DNA from: Pseudoleptotrichia goodfellowii | GTDB lineage: Bacteria > Fusobacteriota > Fusobacteriia > Fusobacteriales > Leptotrichiaceae | Assembly: GCF_007990505.1 (NCBI RefSeq) | Contig: NZ_AP019822.1 | Coordinates: forward strand, 806,001 to 870,000 | Direction: 5' to 3' | Length of the DNA: 64,000 bases | Shown: positions 1,451-42,543 of the stretch, piece by piece | Numbering within the stretch: the stretch's first letter is position 1 | Layout: the number at the start of each line of letters is the position of its first letter | Made by a program: the position numbers and the translations under genes | Notes under the pieces: generated by a model | The model's database searches: none | What the model was told of the DNA's origin: nothing | What the model saw: the letters and a program-made list of their open reading frames with translations, nothing else

Positions 1451-1478
1451 TTGACAAATCAAAAAATGAGGTTATACT
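1451..1478 (+). promoter_or_regulatory. Promoter of leader 1 / glycine-sarcosine reductase operon
   Basis: TTGACA (1451-1456) and TATACT (1473-1478) with 16 nt between them. Nearly the same core, spacer included, recurs at 6186-6213 before the betaine operon, so the two operons share a promoter type as well as a leader. Confidence 0.8.
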
Positions 1479-1569
1479 ATAAACATAAGATAGGTGAGAA
1501 ATTAATAAACAGTAATTTAATTTAAGTTATCAGCTTTTTAAATTAATGAAGATTGAAAGGAGAATTATT

Positions 1570-1731
1570 GTGAAAATAGTAGTTAATAACTTTAATACAA
1601 AAATAAAGAATGATAATTTGAATAATATGTACTTTTGAAGCTGAGAAGTATGTAATCATTGCGGTGCAATGAAATTACAGAATATGAATAACTTTTTATG
1701 CACAAGGCATTTTTATGCTCTAAATTTTTGA
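1570..1731 (+). CDS. Leader ORF 1 with two in-frame UGA (Sec) codons
   Basis: A 53-codon ORF starts at GTG with AAAGGAG 7 nt upstream. Reading UGA as Sec (U), the core is YFUSUEVCNHCGAMKLQN, with UGA at 1636-1638 and 1642-1644; translation ends at UGA 1729-1731. A SECIS hairpin lies 18 nt after the second UGA, the same distance as in the grd gamma genes. The 3' part of the ORF runs through the 5' arm of an intrinsic terminator. The U-x-x-C-x-x-C-G-A pattern matches the Sec motif of the GrdB family (UGTCTRCGAT). I infer a regulatory leader peptide sensing Sec-tRNA supply. A genuine small selenoprotein is the alternative. No known family is recognised. Confidence 0.72.
1642..1679 (+). promoter_or_regulatory. 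SECIS element of leader 1
   Basis: TGTAATCATTGC (1651-1662) pairs with GCAATG-AA-ATTACA (1666-1679), giving 12 bp, a two-A bulge and a GGT loop. There are 18 nt between the second UGA and the loop. The apical stem plus loop (ATTGC-GGT-GCAAT) is almost the same as in the two grd gamma genes of this window (CGTTGC-GGT-GCAACG). It is the expected SelB-binding shape with G residues at the start of the loop. Confidence 0.82.
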
Positions 1732-1765
1732 GTTGGAGTATAAGAATGCTTTTTGTATTTTATTA
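1704..1765 (+). terminator. Attenuator terminator of leader 1
   Basis: GCATTTTTATGCTC (1707-1720) pairs with GAGTATAAGAATGC (1736-1749): 14 bp with two G-U pairs, 15-nt loop, followed by TTTTTGTATTTT. The leader ORF reads through the 5' arm and stops in the loop (UGA 1729-1731), so a ribosome finishing the ORF would prevent the hairpin. The reductase gene begins about 115 nt downstream. Confidence 0.85.
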
Positions 1766-1877: not shown

Positions 1878-3164
1878 ATGAAATTAGAATTAGGAAAAAT
1901 TAAAATCAACGATATACAGTTTTCCGATAAAACTTATGTCGAAAATCACATTCTTTATGTTAATAAAGAAGAAGTAGAAAAACTTGTTTTGGAAGATGAC
2001 AAATTGATAGGATGCAGTCTTGATATAGCAAGACCCGGCGAAAAAACAAGAATAACTCCTGTTAAGGACGTAATAGAACCTCGTGTTAAAGTAAGCGGAG
2101 GAGAAATGTTTCCCGGAGTTATAGGTAAAGTAAGCCCTACAGTAGGAGGCGGAAGAACTCATGCACTTGACGGTTGTTGTGTAATTACTGTAGGACGTAT
2201 AGTAGGATTTCAGGAAGGTGTAATTGATATGAGCGGACCTGCTGCTGAATATTGTCCTTTCTCGGGAACAGTAAATCTTTGTGTAGTTATTGAACCTAAA
2301 GAAGGACTTGAAACACATGTATATGAAAAAGCAGGACGTATGGCAGGACTAAAAGTAGCGGCATTTCTTGGAGAAACAGCAAGAAATCTTGAGCCTGATA
2401 CTTTAGAAGTATTTGAAACAAAACCTATATTTGAACAGGCTGCAATGTATCCTGATCTCCCTAAAATAGGATATGTTCATATGCTTCAATCACAAGGACT
2501 TTTACATGATACTTATTACTATGGAGTAGATGCTAAACAATTTGTTCCTACATTTATGTATCCGACTGAAATTATGGATGGTGCTATAGTTTCAGGAAAC
2601 TGTGTTGCTCCTTGTGATAAAGTTACTACTTATCATCACTTCCATAATCCTGTTATTGAGGATTGTTATAAACATCACGGAAAAGACATTAACTTTATGG
2701 GAGTTATCCTTACTAATGAAAATGTATTCCTTGCGGATAAAGAACGTCATTCGGATATGGTTGCAAAACTTGCTGAATGGATGCAATTGGACGGAGTTCT
2801 TATAACTGAGGAAGGATACGGAAATCCTGATACGGATCTTATGATGAACTGTCGTAAAGTAGAAAGAAAAGGCGTTAAAGTTGTTCTTATAACAGATGAA
2901 TTTCCTGGAAAAGACGGTAAATCACAATCACTTGCAGATACTTGTGAAGAAGCAACTGCACTTGCTTCATGCGGACAAGGTAATGCGACTTTACAATTCC
3001 CGGTTATGGACAAAATAATAGGAACTATGGAATATATAGAAAGTCAAATCGGAGGTTGGGCAGGTTGTGTCAACGAAGACGGTTCATTTGAAGCTGAAAT
3101 TCAAATTATAATAGCTTCTACTATAGCAAACGGATTTAATAAATTAGCTGCGAGAGGATATTAA
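1878..3164 (+). CDS. grdE/grdG: Glycine/sarcosine reductase component B, alpha/beta proprotein (GrdE/GrdG type)
   Basis: 428-residue proprotein of the substrate-specific component B of glycine or sarcosine reductase. These complexes reductively deaminate the substrate and pass the acetyl unit to acetyl-phosphate. In the family the chain is cut before Cys242 and that Cys becomes the pyruvoyl group that binds the substrate amine; here Asn241-Cys242 is present (VSGNCVAPC). Start ATG has GAAGGAGG 8 nt upstream. It is 12 nt from the selenoprotein gamma gene and preceded by the Sec leader. The presence of the Cys excludes the betaine type; glycine versus sarcosine is not settled. A stand-alone pair with its own carrier, without grdA/C/D/trx, leans to sarcosine. 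Confidence 0.9.
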   Translation: MKLELGKIKINDIQFSDKTYVENHILYVNKEEVEKLVLEDDKLIGCSLDIARPGEKTRITPVKDVIEPRVKVSGGEMFPGVIGKVSPTVGGGRTHALDGCCVITVGRIVGFQEGVIDMSGPAAEYCPFSGTVNLCVVIEPKEGLETHVYEKAGRMAGLKVAAFLGETARNLEPDTLEVFETKPIFEQAAMYPDLPKIGYVHMLQSQGLLHDTYYYGVDAKQFVPTFMYPTEIMDGAIVSGNCVAPCDKVTTYHHFHNPVIEDCYKHHGKDINFMGVILTNENVFLADKERHSDMVAKLAEWMQLDGVLITEEGYGNPDTDLMMNCRKVERKGVKVVLITDEFPGKDGKSQSLADTCEEATALASCGQGNATLQFPVMDKIIGTMEYIESQIGGWAGCVNEDGSFEAEIQIIIASTIANGFNKLAARGY

Positions 3165-3176
3165 GGAGGGATAAAA

Positions 3177-4496
3177 ATGAAAAAATATAAAGTAGTTCAT
3201 TATATAAATCAATTCTTCGCCGGTATAGGGGGAGAAGAAAAAGCGGATCATAAACCTGAATTAAGAGAAGGATCTGTGGGTCCGGGACAGGCTCTTCAAG
3301 AAGCATTGGGAGAAGAATTTGAAATAGTTGCTACAATTATATGCGGAGATAACTATTTCGGTGAAAATCTTGAAGTTGCAACAGATACAGTTCTTGAAAT
3401 GGTTAAAAAATATAATCCTGATGTATTTGTAGCAGGACCTGCTTTTAACGCAGGACGTTACGGAGTGGCATGCGGAACAGTGTGTAAAGCTGTAGAAGAA
3501 AGATTGGGAGTTCCTTCAGTTACGGCAGAATACGAAGAGAATCCGGGTGTAGATATGTTCAGAAAAGACGTTATCATAATGAAAACCGGAAATTCTGCAG
3601 CAGACATGAGAAAAGTGGTAAAAAGTATTTCAAATATAGTAAAAAAACTTGCAAAAGGCGAAGAAATACTTGGACCTGCAATAGAAGGATATCATGAAAG
3701 AGGTATAAGGGTAAACTATTTTGCTGAAGAAAGAGCATCTGAAAGAGCTATAAAAATGATGTTGAAAAAATTAAAAGGAGAAGAATTTGAAACAGATCTT
3801 CCTATGCCTAAATTTGATAGAGTAGATCCGGCAGAACCTATTAAAGATATTAAGAAGGCAAAAATTGCAGTAGTAACTTCAGGAGGAGTTGTTCCTACAG
3901 GAAACCCTGATCATATAGAGTCTTCCAATGCTACAAAATACGGTTCTTATTCAATAGAAGGAATGAGTGAACTTTCACCTAATGATTTTACAACAATTCA
4001 CGGAGGATATGACAGACAGTTTGTTATGGCAAATCCGAATCTTGTAGTACCTTTGGACGTATTAAGAGAAATGGAAAAAGACGGAGAATTCGGAGAACTT
4101 TATAATACATTCTTTGCTACTACAGGTACAGGTACAGCTACAGGTTCAGCAGCTAAATTCGGTACTGAAATAGGACAAAAACTTATAGATGAACATGTAG
4201 ATGCTGTTATCCTTGTAAGTACTTGAGGTACTTGTACACGTTGCGGTGCAACGATGGTAAAAGGTATTGAAAAATACGGCATTCCTGTAGTTCATATGGC
4301 TACAGTAGTTCCTATATCATTAACAATAGGAGCTAACAGAATTATACCGGGAGTAGGTATACCATATCCTTTAGGAGATCCTACTCAAGGTGAAGTAGAT
4401 TCCAAAAAAATACGTAAAAGAATGGTAAGAAGAGCACTTAAAGCGTTGCAAACACCTGTTACAGAACAAACAGTTTTTGAAAAAGACGATTTTTAA
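3177..4496 (+). CDS. grdB/grdF: Glycine/sarcosine reductase component B gamma subunit, selenoprotein (GrdB/GrdF type)
   Basis: A 439-residue protein read through UGA at 4224-4226 (Sec350). The flanks read LVST-U-GTCTRCGAT, the conserved Sec motif of the GrdB/F/H family, and the frame continues for 89 codons to TAA. A SECIS hairpin follows at 4239-4253. With the alpha/beta proprotein it forms component B, whose selenol takes the carboxymethyl group released from the substrate and hands it to GrdA. GrdA and GrdC/D are not in the window, so they must be elsewhere. The gene starts 12 nt after its partner with an AGGAGGG site. A conventional ORF caller would split it at the UGA. Confidence 0.93.
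4224..4253 (+). promoter_or_regulatory. Sec codon and SECIS of GrdB/F
   Basis: UGA 4224-4226, then 18 nt, then a GGT loop (4245-4247) closed by CGTTGC/GCAACG. Identical in spacing and loop to the second gamma gene and to both leader ORFs. Confidence 0.88.
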
Positions 4497-6185: not shown

Positions 6186-6213
6186 TTGACAAATCAAAAA
6201 ATCGGGTTATACT
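6186..6213 (+). promoter_or_regulatory. Promoter of leader 2 / betaine reductase operon
   Basis: TTGACA (6186-6191), 16 nt, TATACT (6208-6213). The spacer is nearly the same as at 1457-1472 and the extended -10 is GGTTATACTAT in both. It is followed by about 125 nt of leader before the Sec ORF. Confidence 0.8.
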
Positions 6214-6339
6214 ATAAGTAACGGAAACTTAAAAGTTTTTATTTGATCGTCTATTTTAAAAACAGAACAGAATTTAAGAAATGCAGCAACAGATTAATAA
6301 TATTCATAACAAATAAATTGCATACAAAGGAGAACAAAT

Positions 6340-6504
6340 ATGGAAATGTTAGTTAATCATAATGAAAAAGTTTTTAATATAGTAAAAAAAATGGAAAATA
6401 TATGCTTTTGAAGCTGAGAAGTATGTAATCATTGCGGTGCAATGAAATTACAGAATATGAATAATTTTTTATGCACAAGGCATTTTTATGCTCTAAATTT
6501 TTGA
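6340..6504 (+). CDS. Leader ORF 2 with two in-frame UGA (Sec) codons
   Basis: A 54-codon ORF starting at ATG with AAAGGAG 7 nt upstream, the same site and spacing as leader 1. The Sec core is CFUSUEVCNHCGAMKLQN (UGA at 6409-6411 and 6415-6417), and it ends at UGA 6502-6504 in the loop of the downstream terminator. The first 23 codons differ from leader 1 in sequence but keep the frame open and share a short M-x-x-x-V-N pattern, which argues that translation through the UGAs matters. It precedes the BCCT-grdI-grdH operon. I infer the same Sec-dependent attenuation role; a small selenoprotein is the alternative. Confidence 0.72.
6415..6452 (+). promoter_or_regulatory. SECIS element of leader 2
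   Basis: Second UGA (6415-6417), 18 nt, GGT loop (6436-6438), 12-bp bulged stem over 6424-6452. Sequence identical to the leader 1 element. Confidence 0.82.
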
Positions 6505-6536
6505 GTTGGAGTATAAGAATGCTTTTTGTATTTTAC
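6477..6536 (+). terminator. Attenuator terminator of leader 2
   Basis: Arms 6480-6493 and 6509-6522 form 14 bp with two G-U pairs, 15-nt loop, then TTTTTGTATTTTA. The stop codon of leader ORF 2 lies in the loop, as in leader 1. Confidence 0.85.
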
Positions 6537-6668
6537 TATAGTTTATAAACGTTGGATATATAAATCTGGAAATAAGGAGGTGAATTAAAGAAACAGTTTA
6601 TAAAATGAACAAAGAGATTTGTTTTTGTTAAAGTATCAGGGTACTGAAAAATAAAAGAAAGGAGAAGT

Positions 6669-6701
6669 GTGATTGATAACAATCATACAACAAAAATATG
6701 A
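6669..6701 (+). CDS. Possible 10-codon ORF coupled to the BCCT gene
   Basis: AAAGGAG (6658-6664) lies 34 nt before the BCCT start, too far to serve it directly. A GTG at 6669 opens 10 codons (VIDNNHTTKI) and ends at a UGA overlapping the BCCT ATG as ATGA. Translational coupling is therefore plausible. The spacing to GTG is short (4 nt), so the call is tentative. Confidence 0.3.
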   Translation: MIDNNHTTKI

Positions 6702-8197
6702 GCGAAAAAACAAAAGACAATTCGGTTTATTTAATTTCAGTGTCTATTATAACTCTGGTTGTTTTATGCGGTCTTATATTTCCTAAAGGATTTGAGTTAT
6801 CGGCAAATATTTTGTTAAAAGGAATTGTTCATAATTTTGGATGGTTTTATACATTTGCAATGACCTGTTTTGTAGGATTTGCTATCTGGATAGCCTATTT
6901 TAGTAAATATAAAAACATGAAATTGGGACCCGATGATTCTAAACCTGAATACAGCAATTTATCATGGTTTGCAATGCTGTTTTCTGCGGGAATGGGAATA
7001 GGACTTGTTTTTTACGGAATATATGAGCCTCTATATCATTATGTAAATCCTATAGGAGCCGAATCAATGTCCGTTGATGCCGCTAAATTTGCTATGACGA
7101 AGTCGTTTCTTCATTGGGGATTGCATCCGTGGGCTAATTACAGTATATTGGGATTGGGATTAGCTTATATGCAGTTCAGAAGAAATAAACCGGGCTTAAT
7201 AAGCAGTTTATTTATACCGTTGATAGGCGAAGAAAAAGCAAAAGGGTATATCGGAAAACTTATTGATATATTGGCAATATTTGCTACTGCTGCGGGAATG
7301 GCTACATCATTAGGATTGGGAACATATCAAATCAGCAGCGGATTGAACTTTATGTTTAAAATTCCCGAAACAACTCTTATACAAATAATAATAGTTGTTG
7401 TTATTACTATTATATATACTTGGACAGCTGTAACGGGAATTGATAAAGGAATAAAATTTATTTCAAATTTGAATATGATTTTGGTTGTGGCTTTATTAGG
7501 TTTATCAATTATATTCGGACCGACTATTGATATTCTTAATATTTTCGGTGAAAGTACAGGAAATTATTTGCAAAGTTTGTTATCCAATACATTTGAAATA
7601 GGAGCTTTCAGCAAAACCGACTGGTATGGAGCGTGGACATTATTTTACTGGGCATGGTGGATTGCGTGGGCACCTTTTACAGGAACTTTTATAGCGAGAA
7701 TTTCCAAAGGACGTACAATAAGAGAATTTATAAGCGGTGTGCTTATTGTGCCGTCGTTAGTATCGTTTTTCTGGTTTTCAATATTCGGAGCAATAGATTT
7801 TGCAGTAGCAAAAGAAGTATTGGTAGAGGCTTCCAAAAATGCTTCAACTGCATTTTTCATGGTTATTAATAATATAACATTGGGAAATGTTATATCTGTA
7901 ATAGCAATAGCTTTGCTGTTTACTTTCTTTATTACTTCGGCAAACTCGGCAACATTTGTTTTAGGTATGTTGTCTCATGAAGGAGATTTAAATCCGCCTA
8001 ACTCGAAAAAACTCGTATGGGGAATTATACAATCGGCATTGGCTTTATCGTTGATGATAGGTTCGGCAAACGGATTGAAAATGTTACAGACAGTATCTAT
8101 CGTAGCGGCATTTCCTTTTGCGTTTATAATGTTACTGACTATAGTTTCTATAATGAAAGCTCTAAAAGAAGATGATCAATACAATCAATTAAAATAA
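6698..8197 (+). CDS. BCCT-family betaine/choline/carnitine transporter
   Basis: 499-residue inner-membrane carrier with about twelve hydrophobic segments. The blocks FAMLFSAGMGIGLVFYGIYEP, FFHWGLHPWANY-like (FLHWGLHPWANY) and FYWAWWIAWAPFTGTFIARI are diagnostic of BCCT carriers; the last contains the Trp-rich betaine-binding segment of TM8. It is first in the operon with grdI and grdH, 15 nt ahead of grdI, which makes glycine betaine the likely substrate. BCCT members are Na+- or H+-driven symporters or exchangers. No long hydrophilic C-terminal tail as in osmosensing members, which fits a catabolic rather than osmotic role. Confidence 0.93.
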   Translation: MSEKTKDNSVYLISVSIITLVVLCGLIFPKGFELSANILLKGIVHNFGWFYTFAMTCFVGFAIWIAYFSKYKNMKLGPDDSKPEYSNLSWFAMLFSAGMGIGLVFYGIYEPLYHYVNPIGAESMSVDAAKFAMTKSFLHWGLHPWANYSILGLGLAYMQFRRNKPGLISSLFIPLIGEEKAKGYIGKLIDILAIFATAAGMATSLGLGTYQISSGLNFMFKIPETTLIQIIIVVVITIIYTWTAVTGIDKGIKFISNLNMILVVALLGLSIIFGPTIDILNIFGESTGNYLQSLLSNTFEIGAFSKTDWYGAWTLFYWAWWIAWAPFTGTFIARISKGRTIREFISGVLIVPSLVSFFWFSIFGAIDFAVAKEVLVEASKNASTAFFMVINNITLGNVISVIAIALLFTFFITSANSATFVLGMLSHEGDLNPPNSKKLVWGIIQSALALSLMIGSANGLKMLQTVSIVAAFPFAFIMLLTIVSIMKALKEDDQYNQLK

Positions 8198-8212
8198 AAC
8201 TGGGAGGAATAT

Positions 8213-9541
8213 ATGAAAAAGTTAAGAATTCACAATTTTCACGTAAAAGATGTTGTATTCGGTGAAAAGACAAAATATGAAAATGGAGTTTTGTATATAA
8301 ACAAAGAAGAAGCACTAAATTTTATAAAAGAAGATAAGCATATTACAAGTGCAGATATAGAAATTGCAAAACCGGGAGAAGATATACGTATCGTACCTGT
8401 TAAAGAGGCAATAGAGCCTCGTGCGAGAAAAGACGGAAGAGCTGCATTTCCGGGAGTAACAGGAGATCTTGCTCCTTGCGGAGAAGGAGATTTGTATGCT
8501 CTTAAAGGAGTTTCGGTACTCGGTGTAGGTATGCACTGGGGGTCTTTCGGAGACGGACTTATCGATATGTCGGGAGAAGGACAGAAATATACAATATACG
8601 GAGAACTTATAAATATATGTCTTGTTGCTGATACTGATGAAGAATTTGAAAGACATGAACAACAAAAGAAAAACAGAGCAATCAGATGGGCAAGTCATAA
8701 ATTTTCCGAATATTTGGCTAAAGCAGTGTTGGAACAGACTTCAAACGATATAGAAGAATACGATTTTGAATCTGTAAGAAACAGAAAAGCAGATGTAGAA
8801 AAACTTCCGAGTGTAGTATTGGTAATGCAACCTCAATCTCAAATGGAAGAAATGGGATATAACGATTTAATATACGGATGGGATTTAAACCACTATGTTC
8901 CTACATTTGTAAATCCTAATGAAATACTTGACGGAGCTATTATATCCGGTTCATTTATGCCTGCTTCATCAAAATGGTCTACATACGATATGCAAAATTT
9001 CCCTATTATAAAAGAATTGTATAAAGAACACGGTAAGACAGTTAATTTCTTGGGAGTTATCCTTTCCAATCTGAACGTTTCATTGGAACAGAAAGAAAGA
9101 TCCGCAATCTTTGTTGCAAATCTTGCAAAAGCATTGGGAGCTGACGGAGCGATAGTTACAGAAGAAGGTTACGGAAACCCTGATACTGACTATATAAGAT
9201 GTATAGTTGCATTGGAAGATGTAGGAGTTAAAGTAGTAGGAATAAGTAACGAGTGTACAGGTAGAGACGGAGCAAGTCAGCCGTTAGTTGTGCTGGATGA
9301 AAAAGCAGATGCGTTAGTGTCTACAGGAAATGTATCAGAAATGATAGAACTTCCTGCAGCTAAAAAAGTTATAGGAGAACTTCAGTCATTGGCAAGAGAC
9401 GGATTGTCGGGAGGATGGGCTCACGATGAGATATTAGGTCCGAGTGTAAGAGAAGACGGTTCAATTATAATGGAAAATAATGCGATGTTCTGCGGAGATG
9501 CTATAGCGGGATGGTCTATAAAAACAATGAAAGAATTTTAA
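8213..9541 (+). CDS. grdI: Betaine reductase component B alpha/beta-type subunit (GrdI)
   Basis: 442-residue homologue of the GrdE/GrdG proprotein, next to grdH and a BCCT betaine carrier. At the position where glycine and sarcosine types have Asn-Cys (the pyruvoyl precursor) this protein has Ser247-Phe248 (IISGSFMPAS). It should therefore remain uncut and lack a pyruvoyl group. This fits betaine, whose quaternary nitrogen cannot form a Schiff base. Other family blocks (IEPRARKDGRAAFPGVTG, EEGYGNPDTD) are kept. It is 37 nt ahead of grdH with an AGGAGG site for the latter. Confidence 0.88.
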   Translation: MKKLRIHNFHVKDVVFGEKTKYENGVLYINKEEALNFIKEDKHITSADIEIAKPGEDIRIVPVKEAIEPRARKDGRAAFPGVTGDLAPCGEGDLYALKGVSVLGVGMHWGSFGDGLIDMSGEGQKYTIYGELINICLVADTDEEFERHEQQKKNRAIRWASHKFSEYLAKAVLEQTSNDIEEYDFESVRNRKADVEKLPSVVLVMQPQSQMEEMGYNDLIYGWDLNHYVPTFVNPNEILDGAIISGSFMPASSKWSTYDMQNFPIIKELYKEHGKTVNFLGVILSNLNVSLEQKERSAIFVANLAKALGADGAIVTEEGYGNPDTDYIRCIVALEDVGVKVVGISNECTGRDGASQPLVVLDEKADALVSTGNVSEMIELPAAKKVIGELQSLARDGLSGGWAHDEILGPSVREDGSIIMENNAMFCGDAIAGWSIKTMKEF

Positions 9542-9578
9542 AATGAAAATATAAAAATTCATTATACAGGAGGAAAAT

Positions 9579-10886
9579 ATGAAAAAAGCAATTCATTATA
9601 TAAATCAATTTTTTGGAGGAATCGGGGGAGAAGACAAGGCTGACTTTAAACCTGAGTTAAAGGAAGGAGTCGTAGGTCCTGGAATGGCTCTTAATTCATT
9701 AATGAAAGAAGTGCAGATAACTCATACAATCATTTGTGGAGATAACTACATGGGATCTAATAAAGATGAAGCTATATCGGAAATCATGAATTTAATAAAA
9801 GATTTGGACTTTGATTTCTTTATAGCGGGACCTGCATTTCAGGCAGGAAGATACGGAGTAGCATGCGGTAACATATGTAAGGCTATTAAAGATAAATATC
9901 ATATTCCTGTGGTAACTTCTATGAACGTGGAAAATCCGGGAGTAGAAATGTTTAAAAAAGAAATGCCCGTTTTTGAAGGCGGACATTCGGCAGCTGCAAC
10001 GAAAAACGATGCAGAACTTATGGCTAAATATATAGATAAAATAGCTAAAAATGAAACTTTGGGCGGAGCCGAAGAAAACGGATACTTCCCGAGAGGAGTA
10101 AGACATCAGGTATGGCTTGATTCAAAAGTAAGTGCAGCAAAACGTGGTGTAGATATGCTTGTTAAAAAACTTAACGGAGAAAAATTTGAAACTGAATTAC
10201 CTATACCTAAAAAAGATTCAGTACCTGTAGCTACACCTATAAAAAACTTGAAAAATGCAAAAATTGCTATTTTAACTACAGGAGGTATCGTTCCTGTGGA
10301 TAACCCTGACAGAATACAGTCAGCATCTGCAACAAGATGGGGAAGATATGATATATCCAAAATGGACAGATTAAAAGGCGGAGAATTTAAAACAATTCAC
10401 GCAGGATTTGATCCTGCAGCTGCAGACAATGACCCTAACGTAATCGTTCCTTTGGATGCAATGAGAAACTTATTGAAAAAAGGTGTTTACGGAAAACTTC
10501 ATGATTATTTCTACAGTACAGTAGGTACAGGAACTACTCAGGCCGAAGCATCAAGAATGGGTAAAGAAATGCTGGAACATTTAAAAGCCGATAATGTAGA
10601 CGGCGTTATAATGGTTTCCACTTGAGGTACTTGTACACGTTGCGGTGCAACGATCGTTAAAGAAATAGAAAAAGCGGGAATACCTATAGTTCAAATGTGT
10701 AACTTGGTACCGGTAGCCTTAACAGTAGGAGTTAATAAAATAGTTCCTACTATATCAATACCTTATCCTTTAGGAGATCCTGCTACACCGAAAGAAGAAC
10801 AGTATGAATTGAGAGAACACAGAGTAGCTGTGGCATTGGATGCATTGACAAAAGATGTAGACGGTCAGACAGTATTCAGAGTATAA
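9579..10886 (+). CDS. grdH: Betaine reductase component B gamma subunit, selenoprotein (GrdH)
   Basis: A 435-residue selenoprotein: UGA at 10623-10625 encodes Sec349 in MVST-U-GTCTRCGATIV, then 86 more codons to TAA. A SECIS hairpin (CGTTGC-GGT-GCAACG) follows at 18 nt spacing. It pairs with GrdI as the betaine-specific component B, splitting betaine to trimethylamine and a carboxymethyl-selenoether handed to GrdA. The betaine call rests on the BCCT neighbour and the missing pyruvoyl Cys in its partner. It is closely related to the gamma subunit at 3177-4496. A perfect terminator closes the operon. Confidence 0.9.
10623..10652 (+). promoter_or_regulatory. Sec codon and SECIS of GrdH
   Basis: UGA 10623-10625, 18 nt, GGT loop 10644-10646 closed by the six-pair stem CGTTGC/GCAACG. 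Confidence 0.88.
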
Positions 10887-10907
10887 AAAATATAAATTAG
10901 AAAAATT

Positions 10908-10939
10908 TCCCGGGAGAGAATGATCCCGGGATTTTTTTT
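10908..10939 (+). terminator. Terminator of the betaine reductase operon
   Basis: TCCCGGGA (10908-10915) and TCCCGGGA (10924-10931) form an eight-pair stem with loop GAGAATGA, followed by eight T. Confidence 0.92.
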
Positions 10940-10995
10940 GAAAGTAACGGAAAATCTTTAACGGATTTTTCATAAAAAAGTAGAAAATACAGCTA

Positions 10996-11024
10996 TTGAC
11001 AAAGTAAAAAAAGTGGGGTATTCT
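10996..11024 (+). promoter_or_regulatory. Promoter of the selenium-supply operon
   Basis: TTGACA (10996-11001), 17 nt, TATTCT (11019-11024). The approximately 75-nt untranslated leader after it does not contain the Sec ORF cassette found before the two reductase operons. Confidence 0.72.
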
Positions 11025-11103
11025 ATTTATAGAAAAATTTTTAAATATATTAAGAAAATAAATAAATGTCTAAACATTAAGATAAGAAAAGGAGATGATT
11101 TGA

Positions 11104-12258
11104 TTGATATATCTTGACAGTGCTGCAACATCCTACTATAAACCTGAAGAAGTAGCAACGGCAGTTTACAATGCAATAAAAACTATGGGAAACAGTTCAA
11201 GAGGAGTAAATAAAGCATCTCTTTCTGCGACGAGGATAATTTTTGAAACGAGAGAAAAATTAGCTAAACTTTTTAATGTTAAAAATTCAAGTCAAATAGC
11301 TTTTATGCAAAATTCCACAGAAGCTTTAAATGTAGCTGTAAACGGTATATTTACAGGGAAAGAGCATATTATTACTACAGAAGCTGAACATAATTCGGTA
11401 TTAAGACCTCTTTATAATCTCAAAAAAAAGGGACTTGAATTGACAATTCTCAAATGTGATAAAAACGGTGAATGTGATTTTTCGGAAATTGAAAAAAATA
11501 TAAAAGACAATACAAAAGCATTTATATGTACACATGCTTCAAATCTCACAGGAAATATAATGGATATAAAAAAAGCGGGAGAAATATGTAAAAAAAATAA
11601 TATTATTTTTGTTGTGGACGCTTCTCAGACAGCAGGAGTTATTCCTGTAGATGTTATTGAAAATAATATCGATATTCTTTGTTTTACAGGACATAAAAGT
11701 CTTATGGGTCCTCAGGGAACGGGGGGGATATATGTAAAAGAAGGAATAGAACTTATACAGACAAAAGTCGGAGGCAGCGGAACTCATACTTATGAAAAGG
11801 ATCATCCTTCAGAAATGCCTGAAAGACTTGAAGCGGGAACGTTAAACGGACACGGTATCGCAGGCTTAAATGCCGCACTTGATTTTTTGGAAAAAACCGG
11901 AATTGACAATATACATAAAAAAGAAATGGAATTAATGTGGAAATTTTATGAAGGAATTAGGGATATAAAGGGCATCAGAATATACGGCAAATTTTATGAA
12001 GGAGAGAAAAGGGTCAACAGAGCTCCTATTGTAACAATTAACTTAAATAATATAGATTCATCTGAAATATGCGATATTCTTGATAGCGAATATAGTATTG
12101 TTACAAGATGCGGAGGACATTGTGCTCCTCTTATGCACAAAGCATTGGGAACTGATAAAACAGGGGCTGTTAGATTCAGTTTTTCATATTTTAATAGTGA
12201 AAAAGATATCGAAGAAGCGGTAAAGGCCGTAAAAGAAATATCCGAATACGATTTCTAA
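11104..12258 (+). CDS. Cysteine desulfurase / selenocysteine lyase family protein (class V aminotransferase fold)
   Basis: 384-residue PLP enzyme of the SufS/NifS group. Visible features: N-terminal YLDSAATS, aspartate of DASQ (D172), PLP lysine in FTGHKSLMGPQG (K198), and the mobile catalytic loop RCGGHCAPL (Cys340, with an extra Cys336). It releases sulfur or selenium from (seleno)cysteine as a bound per(sel)enide. Because it is followed by a YedE-type transporter, a DUF3343 carrier and a selenium-type LysR gene, I infer delivery of selenium to SelD. The start is TTG, with AAAAGGAGA 8 nt upstream; no ATG fits better. Confidence 0.85.
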   Translation: MIYLDSAATSYYKPEEVATAVYNAIKTMGNSSRGVNKASLSATRIIFETREKLAKLFNVKNSSQIAFMQNSTEALNVAVNGIFTGKEHIITTEAEHNSVLRPLYNLKKKGLELTILKCDKNGECDFSEIEKNIKDNTKAFICTHASNLTGNIMDIKKAGEICKKNNIIFVVDASQTAGVIPVDVIENNIDILCFTGHKSLMGPQGTGGIYVKEGIELIQTKVGGSGTHTYEKDHPSEMPERLEAGTLNGHGIAGLNAALDFLEKTGIDNIHKKEMELMWKFYEGIRDIKGIRIYGKFYEGEKRVNRAPIVTINLNNIDSSEICDILDSEYSIVTRCGGHCAPLMHKALGTDKTGAVRFSFSYFNSEKDIEEAVKAVKEISEYDF

Positions 12259-12300
12259 CAATTGGTAACAAAATTATAATATAAAGGAGATTGTGATACT

Positions 12301-13395
12301 ATGGAAATTACAAATTCAAAAAAAGGGTTATTAATGGGTATTTTGATGGGTTTAGTAGCAGTAATGCTTGCTATTGCAGGAAATCCTAAAAATATGGCAA
12401 TATGTTTGGCATGTTTTATACGTGATATGTCAGGATCGATGAAGTTCCATACTGCACCAGTTGTTCAATATTTTAGACCTGAAATAGTAGGAATGGTACT
12501 GGGAGCATTTATAATGTCTATCTTCAGTAAAGAATACAAGGCTACAGCAGGATCTTCGCCTGTAATAAGATTTTTCTCGGGAATGGCAATGATGATAGGA
12601 GCCTTAGTATTTTTAGGTTGTCCTACAAGAATGATACTTCGTATGGCAAGCGGAGATATGAGTTCTTATGTAGGATTAGTAGGATTTTTGGCAGGAATAG
12701 GGACAGGTTCATTCTTTATAAAAAAAGGGTATTCATTAGAAAAAAATGTGGAAGTGAAAAAAGAAAACGGATATATTTTCCCGATTGTTATGGCAATACT
12801 TTTAATTTTAAGTGCAGTAACAACAGGATTGTTTGCAGCGAGTACAAAGGGACCGGGAAGTGTTCATGCACCTCTTATTCTTTCTCTTTTGGGAGGACTT
12901 ATAGTGGGAGCAATAGCTCAAAAATTCAGAGTATGTTTTACAGGAGCTTTCAGAAATATTATATTATTGAAAAATTTTGAAGTATTCTCAGTGATTTTCG
13001 GTATGTTTATTACAGTTATGATTTATAATATCGCAACAGGACAGTTCAAATTTGTACCTTACGGTCCGGTAGCACATGCAGAAGCACTTTGGAATATTTT
13101 AGGATTGTATGTAGTAGGATTTGCAGGAATATTACTTGGAGGATGCCCTCTAAGACAGGTAATTCTTGCAGGACAAGGTTCTTCAGATTCAGTAATTACC
13201 GTAATAGGAATGTTTGTAGGAGCGGCAGCAGCACATAACTTTAAATTGGCAGCAGGACCTGCTACAAAAGCAACAGGAACAACTCCGGCAGCAATAGGAG
13301 GTCCCGGAATTAACGGAAAAATAATGGTTATAGTATGTATAATTTACTTGTTCTACGTAGCAATAACAGGACTTAAAAAGGAAAAGACTGAATGA
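12301..13395 (+). CDS. yedE: YedE-family putative selenium transporter
   Basis: 364-residue membrane protein with two repeated sulfur-transport-like halves and about ten hydrophobic segments. Conserved Cys motifs are CLACFIRDMSGS (near residue 40), LGCPTRMI and GGCPLRQVI near the C-terminus, as in the YeeE/YedE group; the YedE branch travels with selenium genes. It sits between the lyase and DUF3343 genes, 42 nt after the former. Its stop overlaps the next ATG (ATGA). Transport of selenite, selenide or another selenium species is inferred from context; direct substrate knowledge for the family is limited. Confidence 0.88.
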   Translation: MEITNSKKGLLMGILMGLVAVMLAIAGNPKNMAICLACFIRDMSGSMKFHTAPVVQYFRPEIVGMVLGAFIMSIFSKEYKATAGSSPVIRFFSGMAMMIGALVFLGCPTRMILRMASGDMSSYVGLVGFLAGIGTGSFFIKKGYSLEKNVEVKKENGYIFPIVMAILLILSAVTTGLFAASTKGPGSVHAPLILSLLGGLIVGAIAQKFRVCFTGAFRNIILLKNFEVFSVIFGMFITVMIYNIATGQFKFVPYGPVAHAEALWNILGLYVVGFAGILLGGCPLRQVILAGQGSSDSVITVIGMFVGAAAAHNFKLAAGPATKATGTTPAAIGGPGINGKIMVIVCIIYLFYVAITGLKKEKTE

Positions 13396-13628
13396 GAGAA
13401 AAAAAAGAAAAAATAATACTGACTTTTCATACAACATCTGAATCAATGAGAGTTGAAAAAATATTTAAAGAATACGGAATTGAAGGCAGACTGATACCTG
13501 TTCCGAGAAAAATTTCAGCAGGTTGCGGAATTGCATGGTGTTCGGATATAGAATTAAAAGAAAAGATTATAGAAGTTATAGAAGAAAAAAAAATAGAAAT
13601 GGAAGGAATACATGAGTTTATTATGTAA
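13392..13628 (+). CDS. DUF3343 putative Se/S carrier protein
   Basis: 78-residue DUF3343 protein with the pattern ILTFHTTSESMRVEKIF, RLIPVPRKISAGCGIAWC. The conserved Cys in AGCG is the likely carrier residue. It overlaps the yedE stop by 4 nt, which indicates coupled translation. A second DUF3343 gene is in the selD-selA operon at 38948-39247. The role proposed for the family is to hold selenium or sulfur between lyase and SelD; this is by association only. Confidence 0.85.
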   Translation: MREKKEKIILTFHTTSESMRVEKIFKEYGIEGRLIPVPRKISAGCGIAWCSDIELKEKIIEVIEEKKIEMEGIHEFIM

Positions 13629-36346: not shown

Positions 36347-36970
36347 ATGAAAAATCCTAATTCAAAAAACGGAAAAAGCATACTTTTTACTTGCCAGAAT
36401 GCCAAATCGCTCGACATTCTTGAGCGGGACGGAAGATTTATAAATAAAAAAGAGTATATACAGGAACATTTGGAAGATGTGGCTCCAATGATACTGAAAT
36501 CTTATGACTGGTTTGTAAGTGCTGCAAGTAAAAGGATTAAAAAGCCTGACGATGTGCAGTATCAAATTTGGTGTGCAGTAGGAGATGAAGTATGTATGAA
36601 GCCTATTGAAACTGAGTTAGTATACATTCTTGAAGTTCCCGATAAAGAAATTATATATTTTAATTCTTATAAATGGGACTATGTAATCAATCATCATTAT
36701 GTGCCTGAAAATAACGAAGATTTGAAAAAATATGAGCAGGAAATGGAAGCTAAGGGATTTGCTAATACATATGAAATTCTTACAGGGAGATATGCCGGAA
36801 AGTTTCCTATGGAAGAGAGAAAAATAAAAGACAGCTGGGAAAGAGTTTTCGATATAGATAACTGGAATGTAAGACAGGTACAGGCTAATCTTTGGGAAAT
36901 AAAAAAAGAGTGGGTAAAACGTATATTGAAGCCCGGAGAGCCTATGCCTGAAGAATATTATGTGAGATAA
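36347..36970 (+). CDS. DUF3841 protein
   Basis: 207-residue soluble protein of the DUF3841 family (YDWFVSAASKRIKKPDDVQYQIWCAV, PDKEIIYFNSYKWDYVINHHYVP, IDNWNVRQVQANLWEIKKEWV). No function is established. It lies just before the selC promoter with its own GGAAGG ribosome site. No signal peptide or membrane segment. Confidence 0.8.
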   Translation: MKNPNSKNGKSILFTCQNAKSLDILERDGRFINKKEYIQEHLEDVAPMILKSYDWFVSAASKRIKKPDDVQYQIWCAVGDEVCMKPIETELVYILEVPDKEIIYFNSYKWDYVINHHYVPENNEDLKKYEQEMEAKGFANTYEILTGRYAGKFPMEERKIKDSWERVFDIDNWNVRQVQANLWEIKKEWVKRILKPGEPMPEEYYVR

Positions 36971-37023: not shown

Positions 37024-37120
37024 GGGAGTGGATGAGTTCTGGTGTTCTCTCCGGTCTTCAAAACCGGCGTGAGGGGTTAGGAGCCTCTCAGGTGGGTTCG
37101 ATTCCCACACATTCCCGCCA
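37024..37120 (+). tRNA. selC: tRNA-Sec (anticodon TCA)
   Basis: A 97-nt tRNA with anticodon stem CCGGT/ACCGG, loop CTTCAAA (anticodon TCA, 37058-37060), a long variable arm (GAGGGGTTAGGAGCCTC), T arm GTGGGTTCGATTCCCAC and encoded GCCA end. The long variable arm and UGA-reading anticodon identify it as selenocysteine tRNA. Acceptor GGGAGTG pairs with CATTCCC. It heads the selD-selA cluster. Confidence 0.97.
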
Positions 37121-37152
37121 AATTACGTAAAATAGAAATGTTTAATAAATAG

Positions 37153-37196
37153 TACCGTTTTTCGGAATAATTAATGCCTGAAACGGTATTTTTTGT
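37153..37196 (+). terminator. selC terminator
   Basis: TACCGTTT (37153-37160) pairs with AAACGGTA (37181-37188), followed by six T. It separates selC from selD; TATAAT at 37243-37248 may be the selD -10. Confidence 0.85.
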
Positions 37197-37288
37197 TTAC
37201 TGAAATTTTATTTCATAACTTTAATTTTTTGATAATAAATGATATAATAATATAAATAAATTATAGTACAGTCGGGAGGAGGACATGA

Positions 37289-38314
37289 ATGGATAAAAAA
37301 GATTTAAACATGATAGTTTGCGGAGGGTGAAACTCGAAAATAGGGCCGGGTGCTCTTTCAAGTTTATTAAAGGATTTGCCCAAAAAGGAAGATAAAAATT
37401 TAATAGTGGGATATGAATCTTCGGATGATGCCGCAGTTTACAAAATATCCGAAGATAAAGCAATCATCCAGACATTGGACTTCTTTACAACGATGATTAA
37501 CGATCCTTATTTATACGGACAAATAGCTGCAACTAATGCTCTCAGTGATATTTACGCAATGGGCGGAGAAGTAATATCCGCTTTAAATATAGTTGCTTTT
37601 CCTGAAAAAATGGATATGGAAATATTGCATCAAATATTGAAAGGCGGAGCGGAAAAAGTTCATGAAGCGGGAGGAGTTCTTGCAGGAGGTCATTCTATAC
37701 ATGATTCTACACCGAAATACGGGCTGTCTGTTACGGGAATTATACATCCCGATAAAATACTCATGAATAATAACTGTAAAGAAGGAGATGCTCTTATAGT
37801 TACGAAACCTTTGGGAGTGAGTATTATAAATTCGGCTCATATGATCGGTGAATGTTCTGAAGAAACTTTCGCAAAATGTATTAAGCAAATGACGACGTTA
37901 AATAAATATGCAGCGGAAATTATGAAAAATTATCCTGTAAACAGCTGTACAGATATAACAGGATTCGGATTTTTAGGGCATTTGTATGAAATGCTGGATG
38001 GGAAATACTCTGCAGAAATTATAGGGAAAGATATTCCCATGCTTCCCGAAGCCTATCGTTGTGCAGGTGATTTTATAATCACATCAGGCGGACAGCTGAA
38101 CAGAAATTATCTTCAGGATAAAGTGGATTTTAAAATTAAGGATTTTCCTTTGGAAGAAATAATGTATGATCCGCAAACATCGGGAGGACTTTTAATAAGT
38201 TTACCTTCAGAATATGCGGAAGAATTACTTGAAAAACTTAATAAACTTGAAATTAAAAGTGCCGTTGTAGGAAAAGTAATAAAAAAACAGGAAAAAGACA
38301 TAATAATAGTATAA
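37289..38314 (+). CDS. selD: Selenide, water dikinase SelD (selenoprotein)
   Basis: 341 residues including Sec14 (UGA 37328-37330) in VCGGUNSKIGPGAL, the active-site position held by Cys or Sec in SelD. It makes selenophosphate from selenide and ATP. ATG 37289 is in frame, preceded by GGGAGGAGGAC. A downstream-only reading would miss the catalytic N-terminus. Other blocks: SSDDAAVY, DFFTTMINDPYLYGQIAATNALSDIYAMGG, TDITGFGFLGHL. As SelD itself needs Sec, the pathway has a positive-feedback start. A SECIS-like hairpin follows the UGA. First gene of the selD-yedF-DUF3343-selB-selA run. Confidence 0.95.
37328..37356 (+). promoter_or_regulatory. Sec codon and probable SECIS of selD
   Basis: UGA 37328-37330, then 16 nt, loop CGGGT (37347-37351) closed by AGGGC/GCTCT (one G-U). 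A short but plausible SelB site, weaker than those of the grd genes. Confidence 0.6.
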
Positions 38315-38352
38315 TTTTGTCGACAAAAATAACAGATAAGGAGAAAACATCA

Positions 38353-38940
38353 ATGAAAAAATATGAATTAAACGCAAAAGGATTGGCTTGTCCCATACCT
38401 GTAGTAAAAACTAAAAAACTTTTGGAAGAATATGATACAGTAGAAACGACAGTAGATAATTTTACTGCAACTCAAAATCTGACAAAATTGGCTGAACAGT
38501 TGGATTATAATATTGATGTAAAAACTGTAAGTGAAGAAGAATACGTTGTAACAATATCGGCTAAAGAAGAAAGCAAAAAAGCCGAAAAAACTTCACAAGC
38601 AGAAGACGACAGTTATATTGTTGTAATAAATAAACAGATAATGGGGTACGGAAGCGAAGAATTAGGAAAAAAACTGATGAAAGCCTTTTTATATACTTTG
38701 ACTGAACAGAAAGTTCTGCCTAAAAAAGTTATATTTTATAACGGAGGGGCTTTATTAGTGGATAAAACCCGAAGTCATGTATTGGAAGAGTTGAAAGAGC
38801 TTGAAGACAACGGCGTGGAAATAATGTGCTGCGGAGCATGTATAGATTATTATAATGTGGAACTCGCATTGGGAAATCCTTCAAATATGTATTTTATAGT
38901 TGAAGAAATGAGAAATGCAAATAAAGTAGTGCGTCCGTAG
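38353..38940 (+). CDS. yedF: Selenium metabolism protein YedF
   Basis: 195 residues: an N-terminal TusA-like domain (LNAKGLACPIPVVKTKKLLEEYD, conserved Cys in GLACP) and a C-terminal DsrE-like domain (GYGSEELGKKLMKAFLYTLTEQ, ending in CCGACIDYY). This two-domain form is the selenium-linked YedF. It probably moves selenium or sulfur between proteins near SelD. I take ATG 38353 (AAGGAGAAAAC upstream) over an earlier start. It lies 38 nt after selD. Confidence 0.9.
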   Translation: MKKYELNAKGLACPIPVVKTKKLLEEYDTVETTVDNFTATQNLTKLAEQLDYNIDVKTVSEEEYVVTISAKEESKKAEKTSQAEDDSYIVVINKQIMGYGSEELGKKLMKAFLYTLTEQKVLPKKVIFYNGGALLVDKTRSHVLEELKELEDNGVEIMCCGACIDYYNVELALGNPSNMYFIVEEMRNANKVVRP

Positions 38941-38947
38941 GTGGAAA

Positions 38948-39247
38948 ATGATAAAAACGAAAGATGAAGGAATAGTAGTATTTCATAATACACACGACGC
39001 GATAAAAGCTGATAATATATGTATGTCTAAGCAAATAAAAGCGGGATTGATACCGGTACATCCTTCTATCAGTTTGGGATGCGGTTTTATGTTGAAAACC
39101 GAATGGAAAGATTTCAGTAATTTAATAAAAACCTTAGACGATGAAAATATAAATTACAAGGCTCTTTATTATTCCCAAAAAAGGGGTATGAAAAGAGAAG
39201 TTGAATTGTTATATGAAGATAAAGAAGATATAACGACAGAAAAATAA
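38948..39247 (+). CDS. DUF3343 putative Se/S carrier protein (second copy)
   Basis: 99 residues, with [38 protein letters not shown]; Cys in LGCG is the likely carrier residue. A homologue of the protein at 13392-13628 with a longer acidic C-terminal tail. Between yedF and selB in the Sec operon, 7 nt after yedF. Family role by association only. Confidence 0.85.
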
Positions 39248-39275
39248 AAAATACTGCCTGGAGAAGAGATAAATT

Positions 39276-41153
39276 ATGAGTAATGTAATAATAGGGACTG
39301 CGGGACACATAGACCACGGTAAGACAACATTGATTAAGGCATTGAGCGGAATAGAAACGGATACTACGGCAGAAGAAAAAGAAAGGGGAATGTCCATTAA
39401 TTTGGGATTTGCTTATTTTGATTTGCCGAGTGGAAAAAGATGCGGAGTGGTAGATGTTCCTGGACATGAAAAATTTATAAAAAATATGCTTGCGGGAGTC
39501 AGCGGAATTAATCTTGTGTTGCTTTTAGTGGATTCCCGTGAGGGAATAATGCCGCAAACGAAAGAACATGCGGATATATTGTCATTATTGGGAGTGGAAA
39601 ACTATATAATAGTAATGACAAAGATTGACTTAGCTGAAAAAGAATACAGAGAAATCGTTAAAGAAGAGATAGAAAGCTATATTAAAGGAACTCCGCTTGA
39701 TGGAAGTCCTATAATCGAAGTGGACTCTGTCAGCAAAAAAGGTATAGATACACTTCTTAAAGAGATAGATCGTAAAATTGAAAATATAGCTGAAATAAAA
39801 GAAGGAAAAAATGCACGTCTTAATGTAGATAGAGCTTTTCAGGTAAAAGGATTCGGAACTGTTGTAACGGGAACTTTGACTGAAGGTATGGTTTCTGTAG
39901 GAGATGAACTTGAAATTTATCCTGAAAATCTGAAAACGAAAGTCAGAAATATACAGGTACATAAACAGGACGTAAAGACAGCTCACACAGGACAGAGAAC
40001 GGCAATAAGTCTGACAAATGTAAAAATAGATGATGTCGGGAGAGGTCGTACATTGGCGACTCCCGGTACATTAACAAAAACTTATATGCTTGATACCGAG
40101 ATAAAAATAATAGATAATTCGGATTTTACTTTGGAATTATGGGACAGAGTCCGTGTTTATACGGGAACTTCCGAAGTAATGGCTAGAATCGTGCCGTTAG
40201 GCAGTGAAGTACTTGAATCGGGAAAAGGAGGATTTGCTCAACTGCGTCTGGAAGAGGAAGTTTCGGTAAAAAATTACGACAGATTTATAATAAGGACTTA
40301 TTCGCCTATGATTACTGTGGGAGGAGGAGTCATTTTGGATGTTTCTCCGAAAAAACACAGCAGATTTAATGAAGAGATTTTGAATAAACTTAAAGTTCAG
40401 TCTAAAGGAAATAGTAAAGAACTTATTTCAAATTATATTTTGACAGGACATGCTTATCTCATTACTGCCGAAGAAATCGTAAAAACACTGGAACAGAGTC
40501 TTGAGAATGTTGAAAAAGATTTGGCAGAACTGGTTCAGGACGGAGCATTATACAAGACAAAAGCCGGATATATTCATGTTAAGAAATACGAAGATATTCT
40601 TGAGAAAGTTTCGACTTTGGTAGGAGATTACCATAAGAAATTCAGATTAAAAAGAGGTATATCTAAAGCAGAATTATTTTCAAAATTTAAAATTAATCAA
40701 AAAGAATTGGCTGTAATAATTGATTTATTTGTGAGTAATAATGTCCTTAAAATTCAAAATAATTTTATTTCTTTATATGATTTTGAAGTTAAATATGACG
40801 CGAATCAGTTGAAAGAAAAAAATAATATAGAAAAAATACTTTTGGAAAGTAAGTTTACTCCGCCGAATATAAAAGACCTGACAAAAAATAATAAAGGACT
40901 TAATGAACTGCTGAGTTCACTGGCGGGGGATACAATTATAATATTAAATGAAGATATTGCAATACATGTTAAAACTTTTGAAGAAGCTAAAAATAAGGTC
41001 TTAAAGCATTTTGAAAATAATAAAAAATTGACATTGGCTGAATTTCGTGATTTTACAGGCTCAAGCAGAAAATATTCTCTGCCTATTTTGGAATATATGG
41101 ATAAACAGGGAATTACCAAAAGAGTGGAAGATTACAGGGTTTTAGGAAAATAA
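39276..41153 (+). CDS. selB: Selenocysteine-specific elongation factor SelB
   Basis: 625 residues: EF-Tu-like GTPase ([19 protein letters not shown] as P-loop, DVPGHEKFI as G3, TKID as G4), domains II and III to about residue 360, and C-terminal winged helices from about 370 to 625 that bind the SECIS (ending [15 protein letters not shown]...). It brings Sec-tRNA to UGA codons with a SECIS. It presumably serves the four Grd/leader SECIS sites in this window, which share a GGU loop. Followed 16 nt later by selA. Confidence 0.96.
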
Positions 41154-41169
41154 CAAACGGGAGAAGATT

Positions 41170-42543
41170 ATGAACGAATTATTATCAAAAATACCGTCTA
41201 TAAATAAAATTCTTTTGACGGAAGAGCTTAAGCAATTATTGGAAGAATATCCTGAAATATTTGTAAAAGATATTGTAAAAAAAGAAGCGGAAGATATAAA
41301 AAATGACATTTTGATGTCAAGTATAAAAGAAGTTCCCTCAATGGAAGAAATCGTTGAAAGAGTGTCGTTTCAAGTGAAAAAGAAAGACAGGCTTTCTTTA
41401 AGACGGGTAATAAATGCCACAGGAACTATATTGCATACGAATTTGGGACGTAGTCTTTTAAGTGAACATGTAAAAGAAAATTTAACAGAAATAGCTTTTA
41501 ATTATTCAAATTTGGAATTTAATATTGATGAAAAAGCGAGAGGAAGCCGTTACACTCATTTAATCGACATTATAAAACGTCTGACAGGAGCGGAAGATGT
41601 ACTTGTTGTAAACAATAACGCGGCTGCTGTACTTTTAACGTTGAACACACTTACTAAAGGCAAAGAAATTGTTGTTTCCAGAGGAGAACTTGTGGAAATC
41701 GGAGGAGCTTTCCGTATTCCCGAGATCATCAAATTAAGCGGAGGAATTTCCTGCGAAATAGGGACTACAAATAAAACACATTTGAAAGACTATGAAAACG
41801 CTATTAATGAAAATACGGGAGTATTATTGAAAGTGCATACAAGCAACTACAAAATATCAGGATTTACGAAGTCTGTAACTTACGAGGAAGTTGCTGCTTT
41901 GGCTCACGAAAAAGGCCTGATAGCAATAAATGACCTGGGAAGCGGACAGTTTGTGGATTTTCGACCTTACGGATTGCCTTATGAGCCTACTGTAAAAGAA
42001 GTTTTAGACAGCGGTATGGATATAGTTACATTCAGCGGAGATAAACTTCTCGGAGGACCTCAGGCGGGAATAATTGTAGGGAAAAAGAAATATATAGAAG
42101 AAATGAAAAAAAATCAGCTTACACGGGCATTGCGTGTGGATAAAATGACTATTGCCACACTGGAAGCGACACTTAAACTTTATCTTGATGAAAAAACTGC
42201 ATTGGAAGAAATACCTACGCTGAATATGATTTCGACTTCTGTGGAAAAATTGAGAGAAAAAGCTGAAAAATTTACGGAAATTATAAAAAGATCCCGATTC
42301 GTTGTGGAAATAATAGAAGATAAGGCTGAAGTAGGCGGAGGAAGTTATCCTGGAAGTCAGCTTGAAAGTATTGCGGTAAAACTTACTCATAGGGAAAAAA
42401 CTTCCACTGAAATAGAAAGGATTCTCCTTTCTGAAGATATTCCGATAATTACCCGTATCAAAGAAAACAGCATTATTCTGGATATGAGAACATTGAGAGA
42501 AAATGAGTTTGGGTTGGTAGCGGGGAGTCTTGATAAAATATAG
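41170..42543 (+). CDS. selA: L-seryl-tRNA(Sec) selenium transferase SelA
   Basis: 457 residues, PLP-dependent. Visible: N-terminal tRNA-binding part (LLSKIPSINKILLTEEL), RRVINATGTILHTNLGRS, and PLP lysine in FSGDKLLGGPQAGII (about residue 285). It converts Ser-tRNA(Sec) to Sec-tRNA(Sec) with selenophosphate. End of the Sec gene run and 16 nt from selB. Confidence 0.96.
   Translation: MNELLSKIPSINKILLTEELKQLLEEYPEIFVKDIVKKEAEDIKNDILMSSIKEVPSMEEIVERVSFQVKKKDRLSLRRVINATGTILHTNLGRSLLSEHVKENLTEIAFNYSNLEFNIDEKARGSRYTHLIDIIKRLTGAEDVLVVNNNAAAVLLTLNTLTKGKEIVVSRGELVEIGGAFRIPEIIKLSGGISCEIGTTNKTHLKDYENAINENTGVLLKVHTSNYKISGFTKSVTYEEVAALAHEKGLIAINDLGSGQFVDFRPYGLPYEPTVKEVLDSGMDIVTFSGDKLLGGPQAGIIVGKKKYIEEMKKNQLTRALRVDKMTIATLEATLKLYLDEKTALEEIPTLNMISTSVEKLREKAEKFTEIIKRSRFVVEIIEDKAEVGGGSYPGSQLESIAVKLTHREKTSTEIERILLSEDIPIITRIKENSIILDMRTLRENEFGLVAGSLDKI

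Follow-up and report, generated by a model that had tools for sequence, protein, structure and literature searches.

In the trp, his and leu attenuators, an intrinsic terminator and the operon follow a short leader ORF that contains codons for the aminoacyl-tRNA being sensed, while in pyrBI of E. coli the leader ORF (pyrL) enters the terminator itself, where a ribosome close behind the polymerase prevents the hairpin and no antiterminator is needed. E. coli selAB carries a SECIS-like element in its 5′ leader, described as acting on translation through SelB. How bacteria match the expression of selenoprotein genes to selenium supply is poorly known.

We analysed a window of 64,000 nucleotides from the genome of Pseudoleptotrichia goodfellowii (2.29 Mb, a single contig), in which the selenocysteine (Sec)-dependent sarcosine and betaine reductase operons are each preceded by a leader (leader 1, 1570–1763; leader 2, 6340–6536). 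Both are built of a putative promoter, a Shine-Dalgarno sequence (SD), an ORF interrupted by UGA-AGC-UGA, a SECIS-like hairpin, a predicted terminator, and 45 nt beyond it (Table 1). The original prediction had described a second copy before BCCT-grdI-grdH with the same parts in the same order, the same AAAGGAG and 7-nt spacing, and a frame open in both copies, and every one of these elements is found there. The features of an attenuator, namely an SD-equipped ORF, candidate Sec codons and a terminator before the first structural gene, are present in both, and we believe that each leader is probably a selenocysteine-dependent transcription attenuator, switched on by Sec through occlusion of the terminator by the ribosome.

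Table 1. Features of the two leaders and their genomic surroundings (window coordinates unless another sequence is named).
Feature	Position	Strand	Details
Promoter of leader 1 (putative)	1451–1478	+	
Shine-Dalgarno AAAGGAG, leader 1	1556–1562	+	7 nt before GTG 1570
Leader 1 ORF	1570–1731	+	GTG start; UGA 1636 and 1642; stop UGA 1729
UGA-AGC-UGA, leader 1	1636–1644	+	
SECIS-like stem-loop, leader 1	1657–1671	+	identical to leader 2 copy
Terminator of leader 1 (predicted)	1707–1763	+	stem identical to leader 2 stem
Sarcosine reductase grdG and grdF	1878–4496	+	downstream of leader 1; GrdF Sec at 4224
Promoter of leader 2, sigma-70 type (putative)	6186–6213	+	TTGACA-16-TATACT
Shine-Dalgarno AAAGGAG, leader 2	6326–6332	+	7-nt spacer to ATG 6340; from sequence
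Leader 2 ORF	6340–6504	+	23 codons, UGA-AGC-UGA, 28 more codons, stop UGA 6502
Hairpin P1, leader 2	6400–6426	+	8 bp; both UGAs in or at the loop
Tandem UGA-AGC-UGA, leader 2 (putative regulatory codons)	6409–6417	+	UGA1 6409, UGA2 6415
SECIS-like stem-loop, leader 2	6430–6444	+	CAUUGC-GGU-GCAAUG
Intrinsic terminator, leader 2 (predicted)	6480–6536	+	17-bp stem 6480–6522, then U-rich tail
Conserved stretch 3′ of terminator, leader 2	6537–6582	+	ends in SD-like AAGGAGGTG
Betaine operon: BCCT transporter, grdI-type subunit, grdH	6698–10886	+	downstream of leader 2; Sec at 10623
Sec machinery	37024–42543	+	tRNA-Sec 37024–37120, SelD with Sec, YedF-like, SelB 39276, SelA 41170
Glycine riboswitch RF00504, same genome	L043:7177–7284 (G000:C1 about 795177–795284)		Rfam

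Like the trp, his and leu systems, the leaders place a short ORF with candidate codons for the sensed tRNA ahead of an intrinsic terminator and operon; the proposed polarity is the opposite, however, with Sec abundance turning the operon on, the codons are stops that would need recoding, and no competing antiterminator is seen. An ORF running into the terminator and the absence of an antiterminator hairpin are features held in common with pyrBI, which senses UTP via polymerase pausing, whereas in the leaders UGA recoding by Sec-tRNA/SelB would act as the gate. With the selAB element they share a SECIS-type RNA in a 5′ leader for the control of Sec-related genes, but they couple a putatively translated ORF, a tandem UGA and a terminator. 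We lean towards regarding the pair as the first attenuator to sense Sec-insertion capacity, in which two stops would have to be recoded before the terminator is disarmed, a threshold-like gate made from a duplicated GrdB-type Sec site; no earlier account of a selenocysteine attenuator was found in open-access papers, and the novelty is provisional. If true, a leader responding directly to Sec insertion would give, for one organism, a direct answer to the question of selenium matching, and would mean that a transcription switch can take stop-codon recoding as its input. Such a leader might also be used to sense selenium supply or Sec incorporation, and is compact enough for reporter testing.

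The zero frame through both UGAs is the only one that reaches the terminator, in leader 2 as in leader 1 (stop at 1729). The other frames of leader 2 end early, +1 at 6443 and −1 at 6426, and therefore only recoding of both UGAs would bring a ribosome to the terminator, whose loop contains the leader stop codon (6502–6504). Programmed frameshifting at UUU-UGA was rejected, since both other frames stop ahead of the terminator. The count of 23 first codons given in the original prediction holds for leader 2, where 23 precede UGA1; leader 1 has 22.

The SECIS-like hairpin resembles SECIS_4 (RF01990), the GrdB SECIS, in its GGU loop, its GC-closed stem and the 18 nt that separate loop and UGA (here UGA2); the GrdB genes at 4224 and 10623 have exactly this distance too. 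From UGA1 the GGU loop is 24 nt away, 6 nt more than the GrdB spacing, and the decoding of UGA1 as Sec is for this reason uncertain. Unlike SECIS_4, the leader elements lie outside a selenoprotein gene, with an extra UGA upstream and a terminator downstream, and Rfam SECIS_4 does not report them even at an E of 1 (thus below the gathering threshold), while the GrdB Sec sites of the window score 58–63 bits. In a search with a covariance model of the leader core, the next matches after the leaders themselves were mostly GrdB Sec sites; the leader SECIS thus resembles that of GrdB, and a GrdB-type site is its probable origin.

If the putative promoters are used and the ORFs translated, ribosomes would begin translation of the leader ORF shortly after the start of transcription. 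With charged Sec-tRNA and SelB in short supply, translation would be ended by release factor 2 at UGA1 (or UGA2), 71 nt before the terminator, leaving the hairpin free, and RNA polymerase would be stopped ahead of the Grd genes. When Sec insertion is possible, directed by the SECIS-like hairpin, the ribosome would stay in the zero frame, pass over the terminator's 5′ arm and reach the stop codon in the loop, so that the hairpin is blocked and polymerase proceeds. The Sec-ON polarity would thus come from ribosome occlusion, as in pyrBI, and not from an alternative antiterminator. The tandem UGA may make recoding necessary twice, giving a sharper response.

Fold predictions are consistent with this scheme. 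The terminator (a 17-bp stem followed by a U tract) has a predicted energy of −27 kcal/mol, with z = −6.6 and −8.2 in the two copies, and the SECIS-like hairpin folds with z = −2.8. The predicted pairing probability of the terminator is 0.97 without a ribosome or with one at UGA1 or UGA2, and 0.25–0.27 when the ribosome sits at the leader stop, figures that follow partly from the footprint imposed and are a consistency check rather than a proof. No mutually exclusive antiterminator hairpin of the trp type, using a terminator arm, appears in the folds of the leaders.

The ORF could alternatively be a genuine gene for a tiny selenoprotein with its own terminator, the downstream genes being expressed by leaky termination. 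Its product would have 53–54 aa and the motif CFUSUEVCNHC or YFUSUEVCNHC, in which UxU plus CxxC looks redox-active, and SD, ORF and SECIS are all intact; from UGA1 onward the peptide is identical in both copies. The CxxCGA is, however, largely dictated by a GrdB-type SECIS, the 22–23 N-terminal residues are not conserved, and the residue beside the UGA differs (Y/C). A Pfam search with the leader peptide gave no match, neither 97 other Fusobacteriota genomes nor a double-UGA pattern scan of 85k species contigs yielded a homologous leader, and the end of the ORF falls exactly within the terminator loop, something a protein gene would have no need of. We therefore consider such a gene unlikely.

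A further alternative would dispense with a role for translation: SelB-GTP-Sec-tRNA might bind the SECIS-like hairpin and so change folding or initiation. The hairpin is identical in both copies and placed in the 5′ leader, and a SelB-binding regulatory element is known in principle from the selAB case. This would nevertheless leave unexplained why an SD precedes an open frame, why the UGAs stand at decoding distance and why the frame extends to the terminator loop, and the folds contain no alternative hairpin between the SECIS and terminator arms. Regulation of this kind seems to us less probable again.

Comparison of the two copies bears on their origin. The 5′UTRs are identical at 36/72 positions plus gaps (50%), the SD regions at 13/18 and the first codons at 28/50 (56%), in agreement with the strong divergence originally described for the 5′ leader and first codons, and identity after the core is 39/67. 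The core itself is identical at 180/186 positions (97%), with six differences in this full conserved block, and exactly four from CTTTTGAAGC to AAGGAGGTG (177–178 nt), the number first reported for a 178-nt core. The promoters match at 30/32 nt (94%), and by alignment TTGACA-16-TATACT is also part of the conserved unit. Differences fall mainly in the 5′UTR and first codons, sparing the SECIS and the terminator. P1 has two differences, both G-U/A-U exchanges that keep it paired, which is weak evidence, since any transition opposite U preserves pairing. With cores 97% identical, the leaders are paralogous duplicates and not independent inventions, so the earlier argument from two independent leaders falls away; part of the identity in the core could be due to gene conversion or to a recent duplication.

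The leaders could also be left over from duplication of a GrdB/GrdH Sec site, their terminators constitutive and nothing regulated. The core does resemble a GrdB Sec site, and such duplicates arise: a small GrdH-derived Sec ORF occupies the same grdX-BCCT slot as leader 2 in another Leptotrichiaceae genome (L046, below). A remnant would not be expected to have its core conserved at 97% between copies against 50–58% in the adjacent parts, nor to have retained promoter, SD and frame, and a strong constitutive terminator would do harm immediately ahead of two catabolic operons. We give this reading little credence, slightly less than the binding of SelB alone.

The leaders are confined to two sites. 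Pattern and DNA searches found only two copies in the organism's own genome, both before Sec-dependent Grd operons. A rule-based scan with relaxed criteria (SD and start, UGA, GGU stem-loop, terminator) found only these two in 765 kb of DNA, comprising the window and the grd regions of 20 Clostridia and 20 Fusobacteriota, and no single-UGA leader in these 40 grd regions. The same scan on one strand of 342 Mb of first-order surrogate sequence gave 51 matches, a chance rate of ≈ 0.01 per 64-kb window even with relaxed rules. Insertion of a mobile repeat before both operons by chance is very improbable, even though a relative from the same genus has nothing corresponding to the leader DNA at either site: as few as two copies exist genome-wide, both before Grd selenoprotein operons in functional orientation, as opposed to dispersed sites, and none matches phages, plasmids or viral contigs.

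Besides the distance of UGA1 from the GGU loop, the missing SECIS_4 match, the possible gene conversion or recent duplication and the imposed footprint, further points stand against the attenuator reading. Firstly, the leaders are known from one genome only; the suggested search of Leptotrichiaceae and other Fusobacteriota with the core, by DNA or covariance model, produced no relatives in 97 other Fusobacteriota genomes (own genus and phylum included). The double-UGA SECIS pattern gave 62 matches in the 85k species contigs, none of them with stem, frame and context, and a partial covariance-model match in one genome (G044) was rejected as an ordinary terminator. Secondly, relatives within the genus manage the same operons with no leader. 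In two genomes of the genus and in one from elsewhere in the family the gene order is kept while these sites are leaderless, and the leaders would therefore have been gained in this lineage or lost in others. Finally, the model does not account for the conserved 45 nt beyond the terminator; the SD-like AAGGAGGTG at their end has no visible ORF to serve.

The selenium regulon of the original prediction shrinks to two operons, as no such leader precedes the third GrdB operon, the YedE/SclA-like supply genes or selD-selB-selA. In the glycine reductase region, which lies upstream of the window, Rfam identifies a glycine riboswitch (RF00504), and there is no Sec leader. The Sec machinery in the window is complete (tRNA-Sec, selD with Sec, selB and selA), YedF, SelB and SelA being named from their sequence and not by family search. 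Positions 11107–13628 encode a cysteine desulfurase family protein resembling the Sec lyase SclA (below its cut-off), a seleno-YedE transporter (TIGR04112) and a short ORF downstream; these are likely selenium-supply genes.

In the Leptotrichiaceae genome mentioned above (G084), the GrdH-derived ORF (L046:10394–10738) has 114 codons, an SD and an in-frame UGA. Seventy-five of its residues are 71% identical to the Sec region of the same genome's GrdH, with a C-G to A-U change in the SECIS stem that keeps the pairing. It was rejected as a homologous leader, since its stop precedes its terminator and BCCT in that genome is served by a promoter of its own behind a reverse-strand gene; it is possibly an intermediate in the origin of such leaders. 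Adjoining it is a DUF3841-like gene (L046, about 10850–11470, minus strand), and in the window a DUF3841 gene (36347–36970) adjoins tRNA-Sec. Additionally, a short inverted repeat (GTGTGATTG...CAATCATAC, 6658–6700) lies between the SD and ATG of the window's BCCT gene, with similar repeats at the same place in four other loci (L044, L045, L046 and L048), and is possibly a structured initiation region.
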